From Buttiauxella agrestis ATCC 33320 (GTDB lineage Bacteria > Pseudomonadota > Gammaproteobacteria > Enterobacterales > Enterobacteriaceae): a DNA stretch of 64,000 bases. A program made the position numbers and the translations under genes. The stretch spans positions 62,001 to 126,000 of the forward strand of contig NZ_JMPI01000011.1 in assembly GCF_000735355.1 (NCBI RefSeq), in the 5' to 3' direction. Shown one piece after another: positions 47,539 through 62,436 of the stretch; the first letter of the stretch is position 1; every line of letters begins with the position of its first letter. The notes under the pieces were generated by a model. It ran no database searches. It was not told the origin of the DNA and saw only the letters and a program-made list of their open reading frames with translations.

Positions 47539-47623
47539 GCCGAAGTGGCGAAATCGGTAGACGCAGTTGATTCAAAATCAACCGTTGAAAGACGTGCCGG
47601 TTCGAGTCCGGCCTTCGGCACCA
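47539..47623 (+). tRNA. leuX: tRNA-Leu, anticodon CAA
   Basis: The 85-base gene runs from GCCGAAG to CTTCGGCACCA with an encoded CCA. The anticodon arm GTTGA-TTCAAAA-TCAAC gives CAA, reading UUG. A long variable arm (CGTTGAAAGACG) is typical of class II tRNA-Leu, and TTCGAGT is the T-loop. It is nearly identical to E. coli leuX, a frequent integration site for genomic islands. Confidence 0.97.
47599..47623 (+). other. Probable attL within the 3' end of leuX
   Basis: P4-type integrases recombine in the T-arm and acceptor stem of tRNA genes. The integrase gene lies 186 bases away and points away from the tRNA, the usual order. No second copy of this tRNA 3' end was found in the rest of the window, so attR should lie to the right of 64000. 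Confidence 0.6.
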
Positions 47624-47809: not shown

Positions 47810-49063
47810 ATGGCTCTAACAGATATCAAAGTCAGAACAGCCAAGCCAACAGATAAGCAATATAAGCTGACCGATGGCAACGGTATGCACCTTCTTGTTC
47901 ATCCAAATGGCTCTAAGTACTGGCGTTTGCAGTACCGATTTAGCGGAAAGCAAAAGATGCTGGCTCTGGGTGTTTACCCTGATGTGTCACTCGCTGATGC
48001 AAGGGCTCGCCGTGATGAAGCTCGTAAGCTTTTGGCAAACAGCATTGATCCGGGAGATAAAAAGAAAAATGATAAAGTTGAGCAGGAAGAAGCACGTACT
48101 TTCGAACAACTTGCTATTGAGTGGCATGCCACAAATAAAAAGTGGTCGGAAGAACATAGTCGTCGGGTGCTGAAAAGCCTAGAGGACAATCTCTTTCCCG
48201 CCATTGGTAAGCGGAATATTATTGATCTCAAAACTCGAGACCTGCTGGCCCCAATCAAAGCGGTAGAGTTGTCGGGGCGACTTGAGGTGGCTTCCCGTCT
48301 ACAGCAGCGTACTACCGCAATTATGCGCTATGCGGTACAGAGTGGTTTGCTTGATTATAACCCGGCACAGGAGATGGCCGGTGCCGTTGCTTCAAGTAAC
48401 AGGCAGCATAGGCCTGCGTTAGAGTTGAGACGTACTCCCGAACTGCTTCAGCGCATTGATAGCTATACCGGCAGGCCTTTGACTCGTCTTGCCGTTGAGC
48501 TAACTCTTCTTGTCTTCATCCGCTCCAGCGAATTGCGTTTTGCTCGTTGGTCTGAGATCGATTTTGAAACATCAATGTGGACCATACCCGCAGAGCGCGA
48601 GGCTATTGAAGGGATAAAGCACTCCCAGCGCGGCTCAAAAATGCGTACACCTCATTTGGTGCCGTTATCTCGTCAGGCGTTAGCAATCCTTAAACAGGTA
48701 CACAAACTTAGTGGCGATCGCGATTTTGTTTTCATTGGCGATCACGACCATCGCAAACCGATGAGTGAAAACACGGTGAACAAATCTTTGCGAGTGATGG
48801 GATATGACACACAGGTTGAAGTCTGCGGTCACGGTTTCAGGACAATGGCGTGTAGTTCGTTGATTGAGTCAGGGTTGTGGTCGAGAGATGCAGTGGAACG
48901 GCAGATGAGCCATATGGAGCGTAACTCTGTGCGAGCGGCTTACATTCACAAAGCTGAGCATCTTGATGAGCGCAAACTGATGCTGCAATGGTGGGCTGAT
49001 TTTCTGGATGCGAATAGGGATAAGGCGGTGAGTCCGTTTGACTTTGCCAAGCTTGGGCGGTGA
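47810..49063 (+). CDS. P4-type tyrosine integrase
   Basis: The protein has 417 residues. It has an N-terminal DUF4102 arm-binding domain (KLTDGNGMHLLVHPNGSKYW, about 20-90), a core-binding SAM-like domain (about 95-200), and a catalytic domain with Arg in FIRSSELRFARW, HxxR in HGFRTMA, His in QMSHMERN and the nucleophile Tyr in RAAYIH. It belongs to the P4/CP4-57 integrase family that inserts satellites and islands into tRNA genes. It has a GGGAGGGG-type ribosome site. The full set of catalytic residues suggests it is active. Confidence 0.94.
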   Translation: MALTDIKVRTAKPTDKQYKLTDGNGMHLLVHPNGSKYWRLQYRFSGKQKMLALGVYPDVSLADARARRDEARKLLANSIDPGDKKKNDKVEQEEARTFEQLAIEWHATNKKWSEEHSRRVLKSLEDNLFPAIGKRNIIDLKTRDLLAPIKAVELSGRLEVASRLQQRTTAIMRYAVQSGLLDYNPAQEMAGAVASSNRQHRPALELRRTPELLQRIDSYTGRPLTRLAVELTLLVFIRSSELRFARWSEIDFETSMWTIPAEREAIEGIKHSQRGSKMRTPHLVPLSRQALAILKQVHKLSGDRDFVFIGDHDHRKPMSENTVNKSLRVMGYDTQVEVCGHGFRTMACSSLIESGLWSRDAVERQMSHMERNSVRAAYIHKAEHLDERKLMLQWWADFLDANRDKAVSPFDFAKLGR

Positions 49064-49402: not shown

Positions 49403-52400
49403 ATGGATGCTTTAAGGGCTACAACATCGACAAATTTCAGTTTTCTCGCTGAACATGACCCGCTGTTTCTACAAATCGCCGCTGCTGCAGAAAATGCCTT
49501 CTCAGGCGATCCCAACACCACCTTGATTAAATTGCGCCAACTAGGTGAAGCCTTAGCACAACATATTGCTGCGCTGGTCGGGCTCACGTTTGATGAACCG
49601 CCCACTCAGGCTGATTTACTCTACCGCCTCAATCGCGAGCTAAAATTTGAACCAACGGTACGCGAGCTATTTCATCTATTGCGGATAGAGGGCAACAAGG
49701 CCACTCACCAGTTCAAAACCAAGCACAAAGAGGCGCTGGATGGCTTAAAAGTGGCGCGAGCGCTAGCTATCTGGTTCCACCAATCTTTCGGCAAGCAGGG
49801 CGCGGCCTTTAAACCCGGCGCTTTTATTGCTCCCCCAGACCCGAGCAATCAGCTCAGGCAACTCCAAACGGAAATCGATCGCCTCAAAAGTGAGCTCACT
49901 ACCGCCAACATACAGCTAGATTCCAGCCAACAGCTGCAAAATTTGCTGGTGCAGGAAAAGAGTGAATATGAAACGCTGGCGCTAGCCATGGATGATGAAA
50001 CTAAGGTGTTAGCATCGCAGGCGAAAGAGCAGGAAATTGCACTCGAACAGCTTCGACAGCAATACGAAGAAAATTTAAAAATCCTGCAAGCGCAGCTGAC
50101 CGAAAAAGATGAAAAGCAGGCCCGAACACAACGGCAAGAGTTTGCCCAGAAGAGCCGCCGTGCCAGCCAACATATCGCGTTAAATGAAGAACTCACTCGT
50201 ATACTGATTGACCAAAACTTAAATGATGCGGGCTGGCTTGCTGACAGTCAGGAACTGACCTGGGCTAACGGAACTCGCCCTGAAAAGGGGATAAACAAAG
50301 CCATTGCCGAATGGCCTACGGAGCATCAGGGTAAAAAAGGTCGCGCTGATTACGTTCTGTTTTGCGGCTTAACTCCGCTGGCCACGGTCGAAGCCAAAAA
50401 AGAAAATACCGATGTTGCGGGAAAAATTCCGCAGGCAGAACGCTACAGCAAAGGCTTCAAAATCACTTCCCCCATGATCGGCGCATGGGAGCGGGAAGGC
50501 CGAACCATTGCATGGGCGGATGAAACTGACGGGCATTACATTATCCCGTTTGTATACTCCTGCAACGGTCGCCCCTACGTGCCACAGTTGGCCGAGTCAT
50601 CAGGAACTTGGTTCAGGGACGTGCGCGAACCGTCCAACATCCGCCGTGCGCTGCAAAAGTTTCATACCCCGCAAGGCTTGCTGGATAAACTCGAACGCAG
50701 CAAAGACAGCGCCGAACAGAAGCTAAAGCAAGAAGGCTTCGCTTACCTCCGGTTACGCGATTATCAGCAAAAGGCCATTCTCGCCGTTGAAAGCACATTG
50801 GCGCAAAACATCCGCAATGCCCTGCTGGCGATGGCGACCGGCACCGGGAAAACACGCACCATTGTTGGCCTGATGTACCGTTTTCTGAAAACTGAACGCT
50901 TCAAGCGCATCCTGTTTCTGGTTGACCGCACGGCTTTGGGCGACCAAGCCACGGACACCTTCAAAGAAGCGCCGCTGGAGCAAAACCAGACGCTGTCTCA
51001 GATTTACAATATCGCTGAGCTCGGCGATATGGCTACACAGGCAGAAACCCGAGTACAGGTCGCGACGGTACAGGCCATGGTTAGCCGCATTTTTTCCTCG
51101 GACACACCACCGCCGGTGGATGAATTTGACTGCATCATCGTTGATGAAGCCCACCGAGGCTACACCTTAGATCAGGAAATGACGGAAGGGGAGCTCTCGA
51201 CCCGCGACGCCAGCCAATACATCTCCAGCTACCGTCGAGTGCTCGATTATTTCGACGCGGTAAAAATCGGCCTTACCGCCACACCGGCGAAACACACCAG
51301 CGATATCTTCGGCAAACCGATTTACATCTACTCCTACCGTGAAGCCGTGGCGGATGATTGGCTCATCGATCATGAACCCCCGATCCGTTATGAAACGCTG
51401 CTGACGCAAAATGGCATCCACTTTGACAAAGGGAGCCAGGTGCATGCCATTAATATCCACACCGGAGAGGTTGAGATTGACCAGCTAGAAGACGAGGTGG
51501 ATTTCAACGTCGATGCATTTAACCGTGGCGTCATCAGTGAAAACTTTAACCGGGTTATTTGCCAACAGCTCGTGAAAGAGCTCGACCCCTTTGGCGAAGA
51601 GAAAACACTGGTTTTCTGCGTCACGGACAAACATGCCGACATGGTCAAACGCCTGCTGGATGAAGCGTTCTCTGCCGAATATGAAAACTATAATCAAGCG
51701 GCCGTCGAGAAAATCACCGGTGAAAGTGACAAAGTCAAACAGCTGATCAAACAGTATAAAAATGAGCGCTACCCGAATATTGCCGTCACCGTTGATTTGC
51801 TCAGCACCGGCATTGACGTGCCGAAGATTTGTAATCTGGTTTTCATGCGTAGGGTGAAGTCACGTATTTTATTTGAACAAATGATCGGTCGCGCAACGCG
51901 CCGCTGTGATGATATTGGCAAAACGGTCTTCCGTATTTACGATCCGGTGGATATTTATGAGGCCCTCAGCGACGTCAACACCATGAAACCGCTGGTCAAA
52001 GACCCCAATATCACGCTTGAACAATTGGTCAGCGAGCTAACAGATACTGAACAGCTTGAAAAAGCGCTTAATAGTCCCGGCGAACAGGCCGGGGAAACTC
52101 AAGCTGATGTGGTACTCAGCCAGTTAAGCCAAAAGGTGATGCGTATTTTGCGTAAAGCGGAAAAACGCGCAGAAAGTCGTCCGGCGGTGAAACAAAAGTT
52201 GGCTGACCTTCACCAGATTTGGGGTGTAGAACCTAAACAACTGCATCAACACCTGCATCATTTAGGGCCGCGTCAGGCGGCTGCCTTCATCCAACAACAG
52301 CAAGGGTTAATCAGTCAGCTCAACGAGATAGCTACATTACTCGGCAGTGAATACCGGCCGATTATTTCTGAGCATCATGACCAACTAGAGGAACGTAACC

Positions 52401-52927
52401 AGAGCTACGGTAGCCATCAACGGCCAGAAGATTACTTGGAAAGCTTTGCGGATTTTATTCAGCAGCAGCTTAACCAATCCACTGCGCTGGCCGTGGTTGT
52501 CAACAAACCCCGCGACCTCACTCGTGAACAGCTTAAAGAGATCCGCTTATTATTAGACGGTGCGGGCTATTCCGAAGCTAAACTACAAACCGCCGTGCGT
52601 AATCAAACCAATCAGGATATCGCCGCCAGTATTGTCGGCCATATTCGCCGTGCTGCACTAGGGGAACCGCTTATGCCTTTTGCGCAGCGCGTATCACAGG
52701 CAATGATCAACATTTATAACAGCCACGCATGGACAACCCAGCAACGAAAATGGCTGGATCGTTTGGCAAAACAGCTGGTTCATGAAGTGATCATTGACCA
52801 CCAATTTATTAACAGTAGTTTTGCTGATGACGGCGGCGTAAAACAGCTTAATAAGATATTGGTAGACCAACTGGACAGCGTGCTGGATGAACTTAACAGT
52901 GCGATCTGGCCACAACAAAGCGCCTGA
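49403..52927 (+). CDS. hsdR: Type I restriction enzyme, R subunit (HsdR)
   Basis: The protein has 1174 residues. The N-terminus (about 1-120) is DUF4145-like, followed by a coiled-coil stretch (about 150-260, Gln/Glu-rich). The PD-(D/E)xK nuclease follows (KGRADYVLFCG, then ATVEAKKEN, about 311-335), then SF2 helicase motors with Walker A ATGTGKT (about 476-482), DEAH (about 580) and motif VI QMIGRATRR, and an EcoEI-type C-terminal domain that docks to the methylase. It cuts unmodified DNA after ATP-driven translocation. All catalytic motifs are present. It is first in the hsd operon. Confidence 0.95.
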   Translation: MDALRATTSTNFSFLAEHDPLFLQIAAAAENAFSGDPNTTLIKLRQLGEALAQHIAALVGLTFDEPPTQADLLYRLNRELKFEPTVRELFHLLRIEGNKATHQFKTKHKEALDGLKVARALAIWFHQSFGKQGAAFKPGAFIAPPDPSNQLRQLQTEIDRLKSELTTANIQLDSSQQLQNLLVQEKSEYETLALAMDDETKVLASQAKEQEIALEQLRQQYEENLKILQAQLTEKDEKQARTQRQEFAQKSRRASQHIALNEELTRILIDQNLNDAGWLADSQELTWANGTRPEKGINKAIAEWPTEHQGKKGRADYVLFCGLTPLATVEAKKENTDVAGKIPQAERYSKGFKITSPMIGAWEREGRTIAWADETDGHYIIPFVYSCNGRPYVPQLAESSGTWFRDVREPSNIRRALQKFHTPQGLLDKLERSKDSAEQKLKQEGFAYLRLRDYQQKAILAVESTLAQNIRNALLAMATGTGKTRTIVGLMYRFLKTERFKRILFLVDRTALGDQATDTFKEAPLEQNQTLSQIYNIAELGDMATQAETRVQVATVQAMVSRIFSSDTPPPVDEFDCIIVDEAHRGYTLDQEMTEGELSTRDASQYISSYRRVLDYFDAVKIGLTATPAKHTSDIFGKPIYIYSYREAVADDWLIDHEPPIRYETLLTQNGIHFDKGSQVHAINIHTGEVEIDQLEDEVDFNVDAFNRGVISENFNRVICQQLVKELDPFGEEKTLVFCVTDKHADMVKRLLDEAFSAEYENYNQAAVEKITGESDKVKQLIKQYKNERYPNIAVTVDLLSTGIDVPKICNLVFMRRVKSRILFEQMIGRATRRCDDIGKTVFRIYDPVDIYEALSDVNTMKPLVKDPNITLEQLVSELTDTEQLEKALNSPGEQAGETQADVVLSQLSQKVMRILRKAEKRAESRPAVKQKLADLHQIWGVEPKQLHQHLHHLGPRQAAAFIQQQQGLISQLNEIATLLGSEYRPIISEHHDQLEERNQSYGSHQRPEDYLESFADFIQQQLNQSTALAVVVNKPRDLTREQLKEIRLLLDGAGYSEAKLQTAVRNQTNQDIAASIVGHIRRAALGEPLMPFAQRVSQAMINIYNSHAWTTQQRKWLDRLAKQLVHEVIIDHQFINSSFADDGGVKQLNKILVDQLDSVLDELNSAIWPQQSA

Positions 52928-52962: not shown

Positions 52963-53006
52963 AATCGCGCTTGCGGCATGTTCCGTGAGTGAATGCAGGA
53001 AAAATA

Positions 53007-54575
53007 ATGAGTAATAATAACGATATCGTACAAAAACTTTGGAACCTGTGTGACGTACTGCGTGACGACGGCATCAACTATAGCGATTACGTCACCGAAC
53101 TAGTGCTACTGCTGTTTATCAAAATGGTGCATGAAAATACCGAAGCAGAATTATTAGATCAGCACACCTTACCGCAGGGCTGCCGCTGGGGCGATCTCAA
53201 CAGTTTATCGGGCCTCAACCTGCTCAACCATTACAAACAAATGCTGTTGAAGCTCTCCAGCGGCAAAGACGCTGAAGGTAATTCGGTTCATGCCGATCCG
53301 CTGATTAGCGCCATTTATGCCGATGCGCAAACTCGCCTGCGTGAGCCTCGTCATCTCGAACAGATGATCCGCACTCTCGACCAGATTGACTGGTTCAGTG
53401 CCAAAAAAGACGGACTTGGCGATCTTTATGAAGGTCTGCTGGAGAAAAACGCCGGAGAAACAAAATCTGGCGCAGGACAATATTTTACGCCGCGAGCCTT
53501 AATTAACAGCATGGTACGCTGTATCAAGCCACAGCCCGGAGAAGTGATCCAAGATCCAGCTGCGGGCACCGCAGGCTTTTTGATTGCCGCCGATCAATAC
53601 ATTAAGCAACAAACCGACAACCTCTACGACCTGACGGCCAAAGCGAGAACCTTTCAAAAAAATAAAGCCTTTGTTGGTGTGGAACTGGTTCCGTCTACGC
53701 GCCGCCTGGCATTGATGAACTGCTTGCTGCACGGCATGGAAGGGGATGACGAAGGCGTCGTGCATCAGGGCAACGCGCTGGGTATGGCGGGCGCTAGCTT
53801 GCCCAAGGCTGATATCATTCTTGCTAACCCGCCGTTCGGTACGGCGAAAGGCGGTGAAGCCAGCATTACTCGTGATGACTTAACCTACCCAACCAGTAAC
53901 AAACAGCTAGCTTTTTTACAGCACATCTACCGTAACTTAAAACCGGGTGGACGTGCAGCCGTGGTGCTACCCGACAACGTCCTGTTTGAAGCGGGCGTTG
54001 GCACCGATGTACGCCGCGACCTTATGAACAAATGCAACCTGCACACCATTTTACGTTTACCCACCGGGATTTTTTACGCCCAAGGGGTGAAAACCAACGT
54101 TTTGTTCTTCACCAAAGGCAGCGCCAACGATAATCATCAGGATGTAAATTGTACCGAAAATGTCTGGGTTTATGATCTGCGTAGTAACATGCCAAGCTTT
54201 GGCAAACGCACCCCGTTTGGTGAGCAACATTTAAAACCCTTTGAAGCGGTTTACGGTGACGATGCCAACGGTCAAAGCCAGCGCAGTGAAGGGGAATGGA
54301 GCTTTAACTCCGACGAACTCGACGCGCCCGATAACACCGAAAATCAGCACGTTGACGACCGCATGGCGACCAGCCGCTGGCGCACATTCAGCCGCGAATG
54401 GATCCGCGATGTTAAAAGTGATTCATTAGATATTGCATGGCTGAAAGATAACAACAACGTTGATGCGACTAACCTGCCTGAACCTAGCGTATTAGCGATT
54501 GAAGCAAAAGAAGAATTAACCACTGCTTTAGCAGAATTGGATGCTTTATTGACTGTATTAGGAGCAACTCGCTGA
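53007..54575 (+). CDS. hsdM: Type I restriction-modification system, N6-adenine methyltransferase subunit (HsdM)
   Basis: The protein has 522 residues. It has an N-terminal HsdM helical domain (KLWNLCDVLRDDGINYSDYV), a SAM-binding motif I region DPAAGTAGFLIAAD (about 185-200) and the catalytic ILANPPFGTAKGG (NPPF, about 273-285). It methylates adenine in the recognition site as part of M2S and R2M2S complexes. The ATG at 53007 has AGGA upstream; a GTG at 52989 is in frame but less likely. The stop overlaps the hsdS ATG by one base (TGATG). Confidence 0.95.
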   Translation: MSNNNDIVQKLWNLCDVLRDDGINYSDYVTELVLLLFIKMVHENTEAELLDQHTLPQGCRWGDLNSLSGLNLLNHYKQMLLKLSSGKDAEGNSVHADPLISAIYADAQTRLREPRHLEQMIRTLDQIDWFSAKKDGLGDLYEGLLEKNAGETKSGAGQYFTPRALINSMVRCIKPQPGEVIQDPAAGTAGFLIAADQYIKQQTDNLYDLTAKARTFQKNKAFVGVELVPSTRRLALMNCLLHGMEGDDEGVVHQGNALGMAGASLPKADIILANPPFGTAKGGEASITRDDLTYPTSNKQLAFLQHIYRNLKPGGRAAVVLPDNVLFEAGVGTDVRRDLMNKCNLHTILRLPTGIFYAQGVKTNVLFFTKGSANDNHQDVNCTENVWVYDLRSNMPSFGKRTPFGEQHLKPFEAVYGDDANGQSQRSEGEWSFNSDELDAPDNTENQHVDDRMATSRWRTFSREWIRDVKSDSLDIAWLKDNNNVDATNLPEPSVLAIEAKEELTTALAELDALLTVLGATR

Positions 54576-56068
54576 TGGGTGAGATTATTCTACCTGAAGG
54601 GTGGTCCAATTGTACTCTTGCAGATATTGCTGAAGTTAACCCTAAAAAAATAGAGGCTGAACAAGACCTAAATGCAGGCTTTGTTCCTATGTCCCATGCC
54701 CCAACAAATTATAATGGGAAATTAGAGTTTGAAGAAAAAACGTGGGGTGAGATTGGTAAGTCTTACACTAACTTTAAAAATGATGATGTGATTTTTGCAA
54801 AAGTAACACCCTGTTTTGAAAATGGCAAAGCAGCAATTGTAAAAGACATGCCAAATAATATCGGTGCAGGCAGCTCTGAATTTTATGTTCTACGCGCTCG
54901 TAATCAAGAGATACCAGCCAGTTATTTACTTGGGATTATTAAGACCAGAAAATTTATGCAGGAAGGTGCAGGAAATATGACAGGTGCTGTTGGTCTGCGC
55001 CGTGTTCCAAGGGCTTTCGTTGAAAGTTTTCCTTTGATACTTCCCCCTCTTGCAGAACAAAAAGTAATCGCCGATAAACTCGATGCTCTGTTAGCACAGG
55101 TCGATAGCGCCAAAGCACGTCTTGAGCAAATACCACAAATCCTAAAGCGTTTTCGTCAGGCGGTATTGGCGGCAGCTGTGAGTGGAAAATTAACTGAAAC
55201 ATGGCGAACAAGAAATCCTAATAAAACAACACAAAATTTATTAAAAAATCATATTCCTTTACCAAGGCCAGCACGCTGGAAAACACGTTCTACTTCCTTA
55301 ATACAGGGTGTGCATGCAACAGCTGTAGGTAATCCCAAAGAATCACCTGTAGCAGAGTGGGAGTGGGTTCCCTTGGTTGATGTTGCCCGCATGGAGTCCG
55401 GCCACACTCCTAGTCGTAACAAACCAGAATATTGGGGGGGGGAAGTTTGCTGGATTGGAATCCGAGACGCTAACAGAAATCACTCGTCAACTATATTAGA
55501 TACTGAGCAGAAAACTAATGAACTTGGTCTTGCAAACTCTGCAAGTAGGTTGTTACCAAAAGGGACCGTTTGTATAAGCAGAACAGCATCTGTCGGTTAT
55601 GTCGTCAAAATGGGGAAACCCATGGCAACCAGTCAGGATTTCGTAAACTGGGTTCCCTCCGATGTGATTGATGCTGATTGGTTAAAATGGCTTTTTGTCT
55701 CAGAAAGAGAGTCATTATTTAGATTTGGTAAGGGGTCAACACATACAACTATCTATTTTCCTGAATGGCTTTCGTTACACATTTTATTGCCACATCTATT
55801 GGAACAACAAGAAATAGTCCGCCGAGTAGAACAACTTTTCGCCTACGCCGACACCATCGAAAAGCAGGTACAAAATGCCCTTGAGCGCGTCAACAACCTC
55901 ACACATTCGATCTTAGCTAAAGCATTTCGTGGAGAACTTACGGCACAGTGGCGGGCAGAAAATCCCGAATTAATCAGCGGTGAAAATAGCGCACAATCAT
56001 TGCTGGTGAAAATTCAACAGCAGCGTACAAGTATAAAAACTATCAAGCACAGAAAAGGTAACACTTAA
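54575..56068 (+). CDS. hsdS: Type I restriction-modification system, specificity subunit (HsdS)
   Basis: The protein has 497 residues: two target-recognition domains (about 1-155 and 255-410), each followed by a conserved helical repeat (LPPLAEQKVIADKLDALLAQ near 160-215; LPHLLEQQEIVRRVEQLFAY near 405-460). It sets the split recognition sequence of the enzyme. The start overlaps hsdM (TGATG) with AGGAG upstream. Base composition becomes more AT-rich than in hsdR and hsdM from here on, as usual for exchanged TRDs. A run of nine G lies in the second TRD. The stop overlaps the next gene (TAATG). Confidence 0.94.
   Translation: MGEIILPEGWSNCTLADIAEVNPKKIEAEQDLNAGFVPMSHAPTNYNGKLEFEEKTWGEIGKSYTNFKNDDVIFAKVTPCFENGKAAIVKDMPNNIGAGSSEFYVLRARNQEIPASYLLGIIKTRKFMQEGAGNMTGAVGLRRVPRAFVESFPLILPPLAEQKVIADKLDALLAQVDSAKARLEQIPQILKRFRQAVLAAAVSGKLTETWRTRNPNKTTQNLLKNHIPLPRPARWKTRSTSLIQGVHATAVGNPKESPVAEWEWVPLVDVARMESGHTPSRNKPEYWGGEVCWIGIRDANRNHSSTILDTEQKTNELGLANSASRLLPKGTVCISRTASVGYVVKMGKPMATSQDFVNWVPSDVIDADWLKWLFVSERESLFRFGKGSTHTTIYFPEWLSLHILLPHLLEQQEIVRRVEQLFAYADTIEKQVQNALERVNNLTHSILAKAFRGELTAQWRAENPELISGENSAQSLLVKIQQQRTSIKTIKHRKGNT
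55434..55442 (+). repeat. Homopolymeric G9 tract inside hsdS
   Basis: Nine G encode the end of Trp and Gly-Gly in the conserved YWGGE motif that opens TRD2 (about residue 286). Loss or gain of one G gives a stop within about 12-22 codons, leaving a product of about 300 residues with TRD1 and the central repeat. Such tracts are typical slippage sites. Confidence 0.85.
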
Positions 56069-57771
56069 TGAGACTGATATCTTTAAACTTGAGTGGCGGC
56101 TACAAAGGCTTGAAAGATCAGTTCTTTGATTTTAGTTATGCCCAAGATAATATATTTGCATTGATTGGTCTCAATGGTTCTGGTAAATCGCAATTACTTG
56201 AGTTAATCGGAGAAACTTTTGCTTATCTAGAGCGATGGCAACGTGTAGAGTTCAAAACTAAAACATCGTTAGGTTTTAGTGTGACGGTACACTATCAATG
56301 GGATCTTAAAAATGATAGTGATGCTCTATCTTACCCAGACGAACTCATTATCCATGGTGATAGTATTGAGTTAAAGGTAACTATTGAGCTTGACGGTGAT
56401 GTGGTTATAAATGTTCGCGCTGCTGATGAGTGGCATGTATTAGAGCTTGGTGAGCGTCAGTTTCCCATCCCTCTCGTAGTTGGTTATGCTTCGGGGCTAA
56501 ACGAAAATTTACAGCGAAGTTTTATGAAAAATGCTGTTCAATATTTTGAAGTTCGCCGAATTAGTAGCCAGCGTCACAAAACTCTATCGCGAGAAATTAG
56601 TGATGATCAATTGGCTGAAATTAATAAAAATTATCTAGAAAAATATCCATATATATTTAGCCCTTTATCAGAAGGTGATTTTGTTCCGAATTATCATCTG
56701 GATTTGAGAGAAGTGAATCCAGCCTCTAGTAATTTTAACTACCTTGATTACGATAATGTTGGGCTCTTAATTTTATCGCTATCGATTCTTCCGACAGAGA
56801 CAGTATTTCAACTGTTGGATGAAATAACATATAAACATCCCGTAAAAGCCGTACTTCATTATGACTTTCGTTCTGGCATCATAGAAGATGATGCCATTCG
56901 TGATGTGAAAATGTTGATCCGTATAGCAGGCTCCGATCAAGTAAGGCCAACAGGAGGCCGAACTACAGATAACCAGTTTGAGCTTTATGAGTTAGAGTAT
57001 CTGTCTGGAGAAATCACTCTCGAATTAAGCGATGAGGCTGTTTTAAACCGACTTCGTGAAGATAACTACCATAATTCTTTTGCATTGTTTAAAAGACTTA
57101 ATAATATTCAACAGCTTGGTATAAAAAACTGGGCTCGTACATCTCGTTTGAAGTTGATGATAGATGATTTTATAGGTACGGTAAAAAAACCGCTCCAGTC
57201 AAGATTACCTTTATCTGTTGTTGAGTTATTAATGGCTAATGAAAAGGGTGATACCGTAAAGTTTGATGATTTATCTGACGGTGAAGCTCAATTGATTCAG
57301 GTTATCGCGGCCACAAGGATATTCAGCCAGGTTCAAGCACTATTTCTTTTTGATGAGCCAGAAACACACCTTAATCCATCTTGGCGGACTTATTTTCACC
57401 AGCGTTTAACCAACGCATTTACACCTGAAAACGAGAGAAAAGGTCAATCGCAGTTCTTTTTATCTACTCACTCACCATTCATGATTTCCTCGCTTAAACG
57501 CGAGAATGTATTTTTCTTCGAGCGTAATGATATGGGTTGTATCAGTATGGAACCGGTCTCCAGCCAGACTTATGGTACCTCATTTGATATCTTGGTTAAG
57601 AACCACTATGGTTTACGTTCCCTTATTTCACAAACAGTGGTAGAGGATGTTAAACATAGATTACCAGAGGGTAATGATCCTGAAGCTATTATAGCTGCGC
57701 GACGCTGGATTGAGGAAAACTTGGGAGAGTCAATGGAAAAGGCTTATCTGTTAAGGAAATTAGAGAGCTAA
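56068..57771 (+). CDS. AAA ATPase coupled to hsdS, PtuA (Septu)-like
   Basis: The protein has 567 residues and an ABC/SMC-type ATPase head. It has Walker A IGLNGSGKSQ (34-41), a long middle region (about 70-400) of helical and insert character, the signature DLSDGEAQLIQVIAATR, Walker B ALFLFDEPETHLNPS and the switch His in LSTHSPFMISSL, then a C-terminal extension of about 100 residues. It overlaps hsdS by one base (TAATG) and the HNH gene by one base. An ATPase of this class paired with an HNH nuclease is the layout of Septu (PtuA-PtuB), including the pair attached to retron Ec78. The family is clear; assignment to Septu is inference. Confidence 0.75.
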   Translation: MRLISLNLSGGYKGLKDQFFDFSYAQDNIFALIGLNGSGKSQLLELIGETFAYLERWQRVEFKTKTSLGFSVTVHYQWDLKNDSDALSYPDELIIHGDSIELKVTIELDGDVVINVRAADEWHVLELGERQFPIPLVVGYASGLNENLQRSFMKNAVQYFEVRRISSQRHKTLSREISDDQLAEINKNYLEKYPYIFSPLSEGDFVPNYHLDLREVNPASSNFNYLDYDNVGLLILSLSILPTETVFQLLDEITYKHPVKAVLHYDFRSGIIEDDAIRDVKMLIRIAGSDQVRPTGGRTTDNQFELYELEYLSGEITLELSDEAVLNRLREDNYHNSFALFKRLNNIQQLGIKNWARTSRLKLMIDDFIGTVKKPLQSRLPLSVVELLMANEKGDTVKFDDLSDGEAQLIQVIAATRIFSQVQALFLFDEPETHLNPSWRTYFHQRLTNAFTPENERKGQSQFFLSTHSPFMISSLKRENVFFFERNDMGCISMEPVSSQTYGTSFDILVKNHYGLRSLISQTVVEDVKHRLPEGNDPEAIIAARRWIEENLGESMEKAYLLRKLES

Positions 57772-58931
57772 TGTTATTCTCACTCAACCTACAGACTCCA
57801 CAATGCTCTGTATTTGCGTTGCTTAACGCTGAGTTTCTTCACTTTCTGGACTCCAGTGTTAATACAGATGTTTTCTCAGAGGCATTGTTTCGAACTTTTC
57901 CTGAAATGATAGAAGATGTAGAAGTAGAAGTTCCTAGCGTATGTTGGAATAATAAACCCACAAGAGAGAAATTTCATAGCTTATGGGAAGCACTGCCTAC
58001 AACTATTGCTGAACGTCAGAGGTTGTCGGATCAAATAAGTCAGGCTCAGGATGTTATTGTATTCTTTAACAATACACAAACAGTGTTGCCAGAATTAGAG
58101 CCAGCTTCTTTGTTCGAAGCATGTAAGGCATTAACAACTCATCTGTTTACGCGTACCAAAGACTTGGTTCAAGCAAAGTCACAATCAAATAACTCTATTG
58201 AAATACACTACCAGAGTTTTGTTAGAGGAAATAATAATAGTCATCTTTGCCCTATTTGTGGCACGGCACTTCTTTCTCAAAATAGGGTAAGTGTAGCGGA
58301 TGAAGATCAGTGGCGTTCAGATTATGACCATGTGCTTTGCAAAGACAAGTATCCAGTTTACAGTGTCCATCCAGGCAATTTTATTCCTACCTGCCACATC
58401 TGTAATAGCAAGGCAAAAGGGGCTAAGGATGTACTGAGAGCTCAAAGCGGCCAACGGAGAACAGCATTTTATCCACTTCCACCAGCACAAGAGTCATGTG
58501 AACCATATATATCAGTGACACCCCAGCTAAGTAGTCGTGGCGATTTAGTTACAGACTCTTGGGAAACGCCTTTAACATCAGTTTCAATTTCATATGTAAA
58601 TGCTCCGGCAGAAGTATTGAACAAGATAGAAGTTTGGAAAGAGATCTATCAAGTACCTGAAAGAGTTGAGCAACATCTTAAGGCTAATTTTTTCACACGC
58701 ATAGCATCTGATCTTCAGCCAACAAATTTTGATGACTTCTGTCAACAATTACAAAGACATACAAGAAATACTCCACCAGATTATAAGCAGTCAGAATGGA
58801 GATTTTGGTGGCAGAAAGTTTATGAATTCTTAGGAAACCAAAATCAACTCTATTTGCATGATGTATGGTTAATGGTTGAGTGGAAACAAAGACAATCAAA
58901 TGATGCTGATATGGCACATGAATTTAGTTAA
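57771..58931 (+). CDS. HNH nuclease coupled to the ATPase, PtuB-like effector
   Basis: The protein has 386 residues. The HNH core lies near 158-225: CPICGTAL, DYDHVLCKDKYPVYS (catalytic His in DYDH), NFIPTCHICNSKAKG with the second zinc Cys pair. The N-terminal 155 residues and the C-terminal 150 are unassigned, so it is much longer than a minimal PtuB. It overlaps the ATPase stop by one base (TAATG). The DYDH-x-KYP-N-CxxCN-K pattern is that of HNH effectors next to ATPases in Septu and retron defence modules. The target could be DNA or tRNA. Confidence 0.75.
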   Translation: MLFSLNLQTPQCSVFALLNAEFLHFLDSSVNTDVFSEALFRTFPEMIEDVEVEVPSVCWNNKPTREKFHSLWEALPTTIAERQRLSDQISQAQDVIVFFNNTQTVLPELEPASLFEACKALTTHLFTRTKDLVQAKSQSNNSIEIHYQSFVRGNNNSHLCPICGTALLSQNRVSVADEDQWRSDYDHVLCKDKYPVYSVHPGNFIPTCHICNSKAKGAKDVLRAQSGQRRTAFYPLPPAQESCEPYISVTPQLSSRGDLVTDSWETPLTSVSISYVNAPAEVLNKIEVWKEIYQVPERVEQHLKANFFTRIASDLQPTNFDDFCQQLQRHTRNTPPDYKQSEWRFWWQKVYEFLGNQNQLYLHDVWLMVEWKQRQSNDADMAHEFS

Positions 58932-59202: not shown

Positions 59203-60315
59203 CTATTTAACCAAACTTAAATGTGGAGGACGTTTACCTGATTTTTGCTCAGTCAAGCCTTCCCCAGTGATGGAGCCCATAAAGAAGCTATTGCTAAACG
59301 TAAGGGCACTTACTTCATCCGCAGGGAACCGTAGTTGTTCGAGGATCGTACTACGTTTGATCCCATTTGAACGTAGTGCTGAAAACACCTTTTCTAATAC
59401 AAGTGATCTCTCACGATCGTCCATACCTTGTGGTTCGCTGGTTCGATACCCCCGTCGAGCTAATTCAATTGATAACTGTCGATAATGCCATTCGGTAGAT
59501 AAACCCACATCGAATGTGCGACGGACCAAAGCTGCAAGTGACACTTTCCAATTTTTTTTCAATGAGATAAGTAGATCCAGCGATGGCATTCTTGGGACCG
59601 TAGCCAAAACACTACGTTCAGGCATCAGAAAAGCTGATGCAAAGCGGTCGGCATCTAGTTCAGCTTGTCTGCCATTATTGCTTGAATGTTTGTGAAGAAC
59701 TAAATGACCTAATTCATGAGCTGCATCGAAGCGGCTACGCTCCGGTGTTTTCATTGTGTTCAGAAGAACAAATGGTTTTTCGTCAATCCAAAACGAAAAA
59801 GCATCAACTTCAACGCAATTTTCAGCGAGCGAGAATACACGTACACCATTAGCCTCCAGAAGGTGAATTAAGTTAGAAATCGATAGTTCACCGACTCCCC
59901 AGTGTTCTCTCACTGCTCGGGCGGCACGATCAGGTTCCGAATAACCATCGAAGCTACAATCAGGAATATTGGGTTTCGGTAGTTTGAATTGTTCTTCAAT
60001 CCAGATTGATAACTCTTGGGCAAGTTTGCCTGCTCCAAGCGCGGAATCTCTCTTCTGTGCACTTAGCTTAGTCATTGCACGAAAACTAACCGATTCAGGA
60101 GCAAGAGAAGGGACGTCTCTGTCGAGGAAAAATTCAACAGGGTAACCAAGAACAGCAGAGATTTTATCCATACTGTCACTGGCTACAGCATCAAAGATAC
60201 CAGCCTTCTCATAGTTAGAAATCGTTCTGCTGGTCAATTCAGCTGCTTCGGCTAAAGCTCTTTGTGTCAGACCTCTTCGTTCTCTTGCTATACGTAAACG
60301 CTCTGAATTAAACAT
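59203..60315 (-). CDS. Xre-family regulator with ImmA/IrrE metallopeptidase domain
   Basis: The protein has 370 residues. The Xre HTH is at the N-terminus (RIARERRGLTQRALAEAAELTSRTISNYEK, about 7-36), a linker follows, then a COG2856 zinc peptidase domain with AAHELGHLVLH (HExxH, about 199-204) and the downstream LDADRFASAFLMP with the third zinc ligand. Proteins of this type cleave a repressor or partner after a stress signal, and some act as antitoxins in two-gene modules. It starts nine bases after the partner gene, so both form an operon. Confidence 0.88.
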   Translation of the reverse strand: MFNSERLRIARERRGLTQRALAEAAELTSRTISNYEKAGIFDAVASDSMDKISAVLGYPVEFFLDRDVPSLAPESVSFRAMTKLSAQKRDSALGAGKLAQELSIWIEEQFKLPKPNIPDCSFDGYSEPDRAARAVREHWGVGELSISNLIHLLEANGVRVFSLAENCVEVDAFSFWIDEKPFVLLNTMKTPERSRFDAAHELGHLVLHKHSSNNGRQAELDADRFASAFLMPERSVLATVPRMPSLDLLISLKKNWKVSLAALVRRTFDVGLSTEWHYRQLSIELARRGYRTSEPQGMDDRERSLVLEKVFSALRSNGIKRSTILEQLRFPADEVSALTFSNSFFMGSITGEGLTEQKSGKRPPHLSLVK

Positions 60316-60324
60316 GGTACATAC

Positions 60325-61044
60325 TTAGCCTACTTTTAAAATGTCGAGGTCGATATCCGGCGTAAATAGTGGTGCATCATTACTCTGGATAATCGGCTCA
60401 GGTCCGTTAATATCAAGTATCAAACGCGTAGAAAAGCTATTGACTACATTTTTATCGTTGTACGAGATCGGTCGAGAAAGCTCTGCACGGATACCTACAC
60501 GGTGAAAGTCATCGATTTCATAAAAATCGTAGAGTAAAAACCATAAGTCCATTCCGATTTTATTCGGCAGGAGAGGTACAACATCACCTTCGGGTAGATC
60601 AAGGTCCAACTTAAGTTGGGTATCGTCGAACTTGAGGTCTCCTTGTCCTGGGGTATTGTTGTGAATCAACCCCATCAGATCGCAAGTAAAGTCACCTTTC
60701 TTCAGGCGAGATTCGGGGTATCCATGAAGAAGCCCAGTTTGATCGCAGCCACGGCATAGGTAAATTGCAACATTATCGCTAACGGTTAATTCAACATTTC
60801 GAATAGATAGCCGTTTGTACCCTTTTGGCGCAAGAATCTCACGAGCGCCGCTAACTCCCTCACCATAAAAATACTGCCCACGTGAAATTGCAGGGTGGTT
60901 TTGGGTTGTTGAGTAACGGCCTGATAACCCTCTTTCGAGGATTCGACCAAGATCACTTTGGCTGAGATTCATAGGCTGTAGATAGGACTCAACGTCACTA
61001 GGGTCAGCCAGCACGACAGTTTTTGCGAGATTGTGAGAGTACAT
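60325..61044 (-). CDS. Unknown 239-residue partner of the Xre-ImmA/IrrE gene
   Basis: The ATG at 61044 has AGAGG eight bases upstream and is preferred over the ATG at 61050, which lies only two bases from that site. The protein is soluble and acidic in its C-terminal half, with a CxxC pair in YLCRGCDQTG and no signal peptide or membrane helix. I do not recognise the family. It precedes the Xre-ImmA/IrrE gene by nine bases and has a palindromic operator upstream. It may be the toxin or substrate of the peptidase, or a defence effector. Confidence 0.75.
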   Translation of the reverse strand: MYSHNLAKTVVLADPSDVESYLQPMNLSQSDLGRILERGLSGRYSTTQNHPAISRGQYFYGEGVSGAREILAPKGYKRLSIRNVELTVSDNVAIYLCRGCDQTGLLHGYPESRLKKGDFTCDLMGLIHNNTPGQGDLKFDDTQLKLDLDLPEGDVVPLLPNKIGMDLWFLLYDFYEIDDFHRVGIRAELSRPISYNDKNVVNSFSTRLILDINGPEPIIQSNDAPLFTPDIDLDILKVG

Positions 61045-61072
61045 TGGCATTGCCTCTTATGTATTTTCTGTT

Positions 61073-61280: not shown

Positions 61281-62249
61281 ATGATTAGCCTTGTTTTTTC
61301 TTATTCTCATGTAGATGAAGCACTACGCAATGAGCTCGAGAAACATCTTTCGCCCCTCAAGCGGATGGGGAAGATCACTACATGGCATGACCGCCGCATC
61401 GATCCTGGGTTGGAATTTGAACATCAGATTGATCATTATTTTTCCGAAGCCGATATTATTCTTTTGCTCATCAGTAGCGATTTCATCGCCTCCGATTACT
61501 GCTATCAGGTTGAAATGGCCAACGCGATGGAACGTCACAAGCGGGGTGAGGCAGTGGTCATTCCGGTGATCTTAAGAGAATGCGCTTGGCACCAGTTACC
61601 GTTCGGCAGCATTATGGCGGCGACAATCGACGGTAAGCCTATCACCAAATTTGCTAGCCACGATGAAGGTTATGTTCAGGTCGTCGATGCCGTCTCACGT
61701 GCTATTGCCAGTATGGAAGCGAAAAGACCACAACAGAGTGCGCATATCCCTTCTCCTGTTCTGGGGAATCCAGTAACAGAGACGGTTTTTAATCCACGCT
61801 CCAATAATCTTTTTTTGCCAAAAATCTTTACCGACCTTGATAAGGATCGAGCCCGGCGCGAAGGTTTTGAGTATGTCGCTCGTTATTTTGAGAACTCGTT
61901 GGATGAGCTCAGGAAGCGCCATGCTGGGTTAGACTTTGATTTTCAACGGCCTGATGCAGATTCTTTCACCTGTGCGGTGTACATCAACGGAAGCAAGGTT
62001 GGTCAGTGCGGAATCTGGTGTGGCAGTCGTAATATGGGATTTGGGGATATCTGCTACAGCCAAAGCGGTGTGACTCGCAATAGTTGCAATGAAAGTCTTA
62101 GTGTTGCGGATAATGGGCAAACACTTGGCTTCCGCGCCCTGATGGCATTTGGTTACAGCAATTCAAGGGACTCGTTGCTTACTAACGAAGGTATGGCAGA
62201 GCATCTATGGGATATGTTCTTTAGCCCCATTAAACAGCGTAATCGCTAA
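61281..62249 (+). CDS. TIR-domain protein with unassigned C-terminal domain
   Basis: The protein has 322 residues. Residues 1-145 form a TIR domain: SLVFSYSHVD at the first strand, DIILLLISSDFIASDYC in the BB/DD region, and the Glu in CYQVEMANAM at the position of the catalytic Glu of TIR NADases. Residues 175-322 form a separate Cys- and Gly-rich domain (FDFQRPDADSFTCAVYING, QCGIWCGSRNMGFGDICY) that I cannot assign. AGGAG is 11 bases from the ATG. Bacterial TIR proteins often deplete NAD after phage sensing; the C-terminal domain would be the sensor. It is transcribed alone, divergent from the Xre module. Confidence 0.82.
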   Translation: MISLVFSYSHVDEALRNELEKHLSPLKRMGKITTWHDRRIDPGLEFEHQIDHYFSEADIILLLISSDFIASDYCYQVEMANAMERHKRGEAVVIPVILRECAWHQLPFGSIMAATIDGKPITKFASHDEGYVQVVDAVSRAIASMEAKRPQQSAHIPSPVLGNPVTETVFNPRSNNLFLPKIFTDLDKDRARREGFEYVARYFENSLDELRKRHAGLDFDFQRPDADSFTCAVYINGSKVGQCGIWCGSRNMGFGDICYSQSGVTRNSCNESLSVADNGQTLGFRALMAFGYSNSRDSLLTNEGMAEHLWDMFFSPIKQRNR

Positions 62250-62436
62250 ATGTAACCCGTATCAGTTCAACTGATACGGCCATGCTTATAACCAGCCAAA
62301 CTCATCCCGGCTAAGGTAATGGCAGATTTCTAATTTTCGCTGTCGGATGGCTACTCGTCGTGTTCCTCTGTAATCTTATCTACGATGAATAGCAATTGAT
62401 GTTGACTATGCTGAGCATAAGATTGCTGGATTTAAT

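Follow-up and report, generated by a model that had tools for sequence, protein, structure and literature searches.

The gene at 61281-62249 (+) of a 64-kb window of Buttiauxella agrestis DNA, the window being the whole stretch that was analysed, raises the question of whether a TIR protein with an unfamiliar second half can serve as a defence on its own, and what that second half may be sensing. TIR NADases are common to bacterial, plant and animal immunity, and phage sensing by the bacterial ones is known for few systems. An ATG-started open reading frame of 322 aa occupies exactly the positions given for a TIR protein in the preliminary description of this DNA, and its product matched Pfam TIR_2. 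The protein is laid out as a TIR domain (residues ~6-113), a variable linker (144-168) and a C-terminal domain (~169-322). The features of the gene are as follows.

61281..62249, + strand, protein of 322 aa with a TIR and a C-terminal domain (open reading frame; Pfam TIR_2; PADLOC PDLC00420; homologues in many genomes)
61281..61710, + strand, TIR domain, residues ~1-143, probable NADase as judged from sequence (Pfam TIR_2; PDB matches)
61512..61514, + strand, putative catalytic Glu78 codon (unchanged in all 22 diverse relatives; in register with the Glu of solved bacterial TIRs)
61785..62246, + strand, C-terminal domain, residues 169-322, modelled as a putative sensor or autoinhibitory domain (AlphaFold2; no PDB fold match; no Pfam family)
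62257..62279, no strand assigned, perfect 10-bp inverted repeat, terminator-like, just 3' of the TIR stop codon (from the sequence)

The N-terminal half was matched by the Pfam families TIR_2 (1.2e-12, residues 6-113) and TIR (1e-6). Foldseek matched its fold with plant, animal and bacterial TIRs, and the PDB matches to the domain were Cat1, AbTIR, BtTIR and plant and animal TIRs. The helix following SSDFIASDYCYQVEM had been said to keep a Glu, and the alignment bore this out. The residue is E78, which lies within SDYCYQVEM, and E78, W35, Y73 and C74 are shared by all 22 of the diverse relatives compared, down to ~25% identity. E78 is aligned with the helix Glu of the solved bacterial TIR NADases, and the equivalent Glu is the catalytic residue in AbTIR and SARM1. 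Loss of this position, named beforehand as an outcome that would speak against the proposal, was seen in none of the 22. As Glu78 is invariant in such diverse relatives, NAD+ cleavage by the TIR domain is plausible on sequence grounds. The median dN/dS among the enterobacterial copies was ~0.04 for the TIR part versus ~0.10 for the C-terminal domain, both ratios being rough with dS near saturation, and the median identity was 89% versus 71%. Both domains are under purifying selection, so the gene is not a chance open reading frame.

The C-terminal domain was described beforehand as distinct and as matching no known domain, and the searches upheld this. No convincing Pfam match to it was obtained in any of the 22 members. 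The AlphaFold2 model of residues 169-322, built with 16 relatives in the alignment, was good (pLDDT 84.4, pTM 0.81) and predicted a 29-residue helix, then six strands, then a 20-residue helix; the full-length model was poor (pLDDT 60). The Foldseek search of solved structures with the C-terminal model returned nothing convincing (best E 0.3, TM <0.4), and the search of viral models returned poor matches only (best E 0.009, TMq <=0.43), so that the fold search proposed earlier yielded a confident model and no known fold. The search for stand-alone homologues, also proposed earlier, found none, whether 398 genomes were searched with the domain by itself or 210 genomes with a profile; every place found in these searches has a TIR preceding the domain, including one frameshifted copy. 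A profile of the C-terminal domain was too variable for the viral scan. The domain is conserved family-wide at a lower level than the TIR part, and its conserved features are F203, E209-L210, F229, N270-E271 and W310. The label Cys-rich had to be withdrawn. The second Cys of CGIWC, C247, is Arg in nine and His in one of 14 close relatives, the C269 position is Tyr as often among relatives, and the wider family conserves none of C231, C243, C247, C258 and C269. A zinc or Cys-rich domain was ruled out by this variation, and a metal site is unlikely because the cysteines are not conserved.

Full two-domain copies of the protein were found in many Enterobacterales, in other Gammaproteobacteria and in other classes. 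Plasmid copies occur in rhizobia, roseobacters, Pseudomonas aeruginosa and Desulfosarcina, and in Lactiplantibacillus the plasmid copy is frame-broken. On the plasmids and chromosomes of many bacteria the protein is encoded by a single gene amid unrelated neighbours. The phage records gave no match to it; the viral contigs gave none in the first scan and two full-length relatives in later scans. Among 5,426 complete E. coli genomes, 125 have at least 80% of the TIR gene, and many E. coli genomes retain only a 77-bp piece of its 3' end. Such remnants were read fully at two loci (L060:7001-7077 and L061:6959-7087, one of them a DH5alpha record), where they lie beside an intact or truncated hsdR, and they suggest that the TIR gene was lost while the restriction-modification (RM) genes were kept. 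Since E. coli has frequently lost the gene or kept only a remnant of it, with the RM operon still present, the benefit of the gene appears to be conditional. The gene can be dispensed with and may be costly, which would be expected of a suicide effector. For the E. coli matches covering query 10-491 only, exchange of the C-terminal domain behind a conserved TIR was also considered, and was rejected when L056, the one fully read, proved to carry an internal deletion.

The gene of the window lies in a leuX-type island with the following genes before it.

47539..47623, + strand, tRNA-Leu (CAA), leuX-type island anchor (ARAGORN)
47810..49063, + strand, island integrase (PHROG integrase 1.6e-61)
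49403..52927, + strand, HsdR, type I restriction subunit (PADLOC REase_I 7e-269)
52989..54575, + strand, HsdM, type I modification subunit (Pfam N6_Mtase 1.9e-76, HsdM_N)
54575..56068, + strand, HsdS, type I specificity subunit (Pfam Methylase_S 4.9e-38)
56068..57771, + strand, AAA ATPase, Septu PtuA-like (PADLOC PtuA 2.8e-44; Pfam AAA_21)
57771..58931, + strand, putative HNH-type partner of the ATPase (weak PADLOC PDC-M62B and PtuB matches, 6.4e-12 and 2e-6)
59203..60315, - strand, RmrA-like antitoxin of RosmerTA with an HTH and an ImmA/IrrE protease (PADLOC PDLC03949 1.8e-149; Pfam Peptidase_M78 and HTH_3)
60325..61050, - strand, RmrT-like toxin of RosmerTA, divergent from the TIR gene (PADLOC PDLC03935 8.7e-50)

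The pair of the ATPase and the putative HNH-type gene directly follows hsdS and resembles Septu PtuA with a very divergent partner, the PADLOC matches of the second gene being split and weak. RosmerTA is a phage-defence toxin-antitoxin system (PMC10440598). In the window, and also in L006 and L007, its pair has the RM operon on one side and the TIR gene on the other, and in the viral contig L091 a TIR relative is directly preceded by a different RmrT-RmrA pair of the same orientation. The gene had been described as standing alone. This holds for its transcription, as the neighbour is divergent and the inverted repeat at 62257-62279 follows it, and does not hold for its company, as type I RM and RosmerTA genes adjoin.

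The linkage to type I RM was then counted across loci. Of the 22 enterobacterial loci, 21 have an operon of this type on the 5' side of the TIR gene and no more than ~8 kb away, most commonly with the RM genes directly divergent from the TIR gene and 120-220 bp between the open frames. The sole exception is the Brenneria locus L008, for which the 5' flank examined was 2.3 kb. Among the non-enterobacterial loci, type I RM was nearby in 4 of 31 within the flanks examined. In Enterobacterales RM is common without the TIR gene, and the TIR gene is rare without RM. The linkage is strong in Enterobacterales, recurrent elsewhere and not obligatory. The open-access literature searched gave no report of an association between this TIR family and type I RM, and no description of the TIR and C-terminal protein either. 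Defence genes are numerous among the neighbours across loci and comprise type I RM, RosmerTA, Septu-like genes, SspE and a DUF1156 methylase island.

Some further neighbours were recorded. Among the neighbours outside Enterobacterales are three with matches to pAgo-associated REase-PNTD models and two with matches to SspE. A small protein of ~107 aa is encoded 20-80 bp after the TIR gene in seven enterobacterial loci (L012:10348-10668, L057:9984-10304, and L006, L007, L009, L016 and L073) and is absent in the window; the copy in L057 is matched by neither Pfam nor PADLOC. A protein of 171 aa is encoded ~85 bp upstream of the TIR gene, adjoining a WYL-domain regulator (L057:8399-8911, L012:8763-9275 and L016:9404-9916), and its L057 copy has no family match.

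From these results it appears fairly probable that the protein is a single-gene abortive-infection NADase with a C-terminal sensor, which is often deployed as a backup to RM. The N-terminal TIR would be a latent NADase acting through Glu78, and the C-terminal helix-strand-helix domain would hold it off until an infection cue is met. The TIR domains would then assemble and destroy NAD+, and the cell would stop before phage release. In Enterobacterales the gene is kept beside type I RM, where it would probably form a second line when restriction fails. Counted for this reading were the invariant E78 and W35, the likeness to Cat1, the unrelated neighbours, the defence company, the purifying selection, the occurrence of the C-terminal domain only with a TIR, and the RM linkage at 21 of 22 loci. 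Counted against it were the weak full-length model (pLDDT 60), the PADLOC ThsB label and the frequent loss in E. coli; the TIR could also act instead by producing a signal for an effector encoded elsewhere. The one-gene proposal of the preliminary description is therefore kept in part. The unrelated neighbours elsewhere, the invariant Glu and the lack of a visible partner agree with it, while the tie to type I RM in Enterobacterales and the RosmerTA genes of the window qualify it.

The first alternative, which is possible and clearly less likely, is that the protein is a stand-alone TIR of the ordinary kind, found near RM in Enterobacterales only because leuX-type islands are modular in make-up. 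The leuX site is the most highly occupied defence hotspot of E. coli, and defence genes generally abound in its islands (PMC12707154). The low linkage outside Enterobacterales (4 of 31) points the same way. This alternative is however weakened by two distant lineages in which the TIR gene lies inside the RM operon. In L085:4189-14321 an apparent operon of mixed type I and type IV character reads hsdR-hsdS-TIR-hsdM-mcrB-mcrC, with gaps of ~6 and 0 bp, and in L079 the order is hsdM-hsdS-TIR, with the TIR gene a few bases after hsdS. It is also weakened by the nearly total linkage in the face of repeated exchange of the RM class. The RM operons beside the TIR gene fall into clearly distinct classes. 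Mapped on the TIR tree, these require at least eight changes, versus a minimum of three if each class arose once, and are still somewhat clustered compared with shuffled labels. Even the sisters L004 and L017 (support 100/98) carry different classes.

A second alternative, rather unlikely as a general account, is that the sensor of the TIR protein watches the restriction enzyme in the manner of PrrC. In its specific form, to which slightly less weight was given, the C-terminal domain would sense the state of HsdRMS or its DNA substrates, and the TIR NADase would kill the cell when phage antirestriction disables HsdRMS. The 5' placement of RM within ~8 kb at all but one of the 22 enterobacterial loci, its persistence through the class changes noted above, the in-operon genes of L085 and L079 and the rarity of the TIR gene without RM in Enterobacterales are all counted in its favour. 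The junctions between hsd and TIR genes add to this, since queries covered to at least 80% found them in 7, 53 and 100 E. coli genomes for three kinds of RM; these three sets may overlap, and the set of 100 includes TIR genes with an internal deletion. Guardians of RM are moreover an established class (PMC12707154). The opposing evidence is that 27 of the 31 non-enterobacterial loci have no type I RM in the flanks examined, and neither has the 2.3-kb 5' flank of Brenneria L008. The family therefore does not need RM, and the many relatives lacking it suggest that the C-terminal domain can respond to something else. The general richness of leuX islands in defence genes also tells against a guardian role. 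The likelihoods given to the single-gene NADase and to these two alternatives overlap, because both alternatives are compatible with an NADase effector.

A Thoeris role was considered improbable. Here the TIR would be ThsB and would answer infection with a cyclic ADP-ribose signal, NAD+ then being depleted by a ThsA whose gene lies elsewhere. The label fits: the PADLOC model PDLC00420 (ThsB1|ThsB, Thoeris) was matched with 541 bits over residues 1-322 (model 1-319) and by 22 of 22 relatives, and weak Pfam ThsB_TIR matches were obtained in 13 of 22. The family is thus already catalogued by a full-length PADLOC model, and it is functionally undescribed in the literature searched. A close match to a described TIR defence protein had been named as an outcome that would count against novelty; the label goes part of the way there, and the ThsA partner is missing here. 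The neighbours of the TIR gene include no ThsA, either in the window or in those homologous loci that were annotated or profiled, and Thoeris identity was disfavoured on this ground. The STALD domain of ThsA gave no match in 26 genomes or records, a search whose control was likewise silent, and only one SIR2-like gene was found in the host genome, on a different contig and with weak matches to generic SIR2 models only. The CBASS TIR-SAVED type was ruled out, as the SAVED_TIR match of PADLOC is limited to the TIR part (residues 6-94) and the scanned window neighbours include no CD-NTase cyclase. The earlier statement that neither ThsA nor a CBASS cyclase is nearby is in accordance with these results, and a ThsB label in a database can hide an apparently distinct one-gene system. 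That the protein serves outside defence, for example as a host-directed virulence protein, is very improbable: some bacterial TIRs act on hosts, but the carriers here are soil, marine, rhizobial and plasmid ones, and defence genes are frequent neighbours.

The protein thus pairs a TIR with a domain whose fold has no known match, and in enterics, more than 100 complete E. coli genomes among them, it is tied to type I RM, which changes what the C-terminal domain may be sensing. Among known entries, PDLC00420 has the same full-length two-domain architecture; it is a model only, giving no function for the C-terminal half, and its system is defined by ThsA, not found here. The closest solved TIR sequence is Cat1, a type III CRISPR-associated TIR (PDB 9mud), which matched the family profile at 1.6e-13 over residues 1-100. 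Its TIR is reported to degrade NAD+, according to a reference cited in PMC13174449, and it is fused to another domain, as is the candidate architecture here. Cat1 differs in being CRISPR-associated, and the C-terminal halves do not match. Swarozyc and the DUF4062 TIR-like NADases (PMC13174449) likewise combine a TIR-like NADase with an auxiliary C-terminal domain in defence islands, but DUF4062 is another TIR-like family and the Buttiauxella protein matches the classic TIR_2. PrrC of EcoprrI is a guardian of RM (PMC12707154; PMC3874168), and with it and the other guardians the present gene shares the arrangement of a suicide gene beside or inside type I RM, which was found in the window, in 21 of 22 enterobacterial loci and within the operons of L085 and L079, and the commonness of RM without the suicide gene. 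PrrC differs in being an anticodon nuclease and not a TIR, and a shared relation to the trigger would be by analogy. If the TIR protein does guard restriction, NAD+ depletion would join PrrC and PARIS among the few answers to antirestriction.
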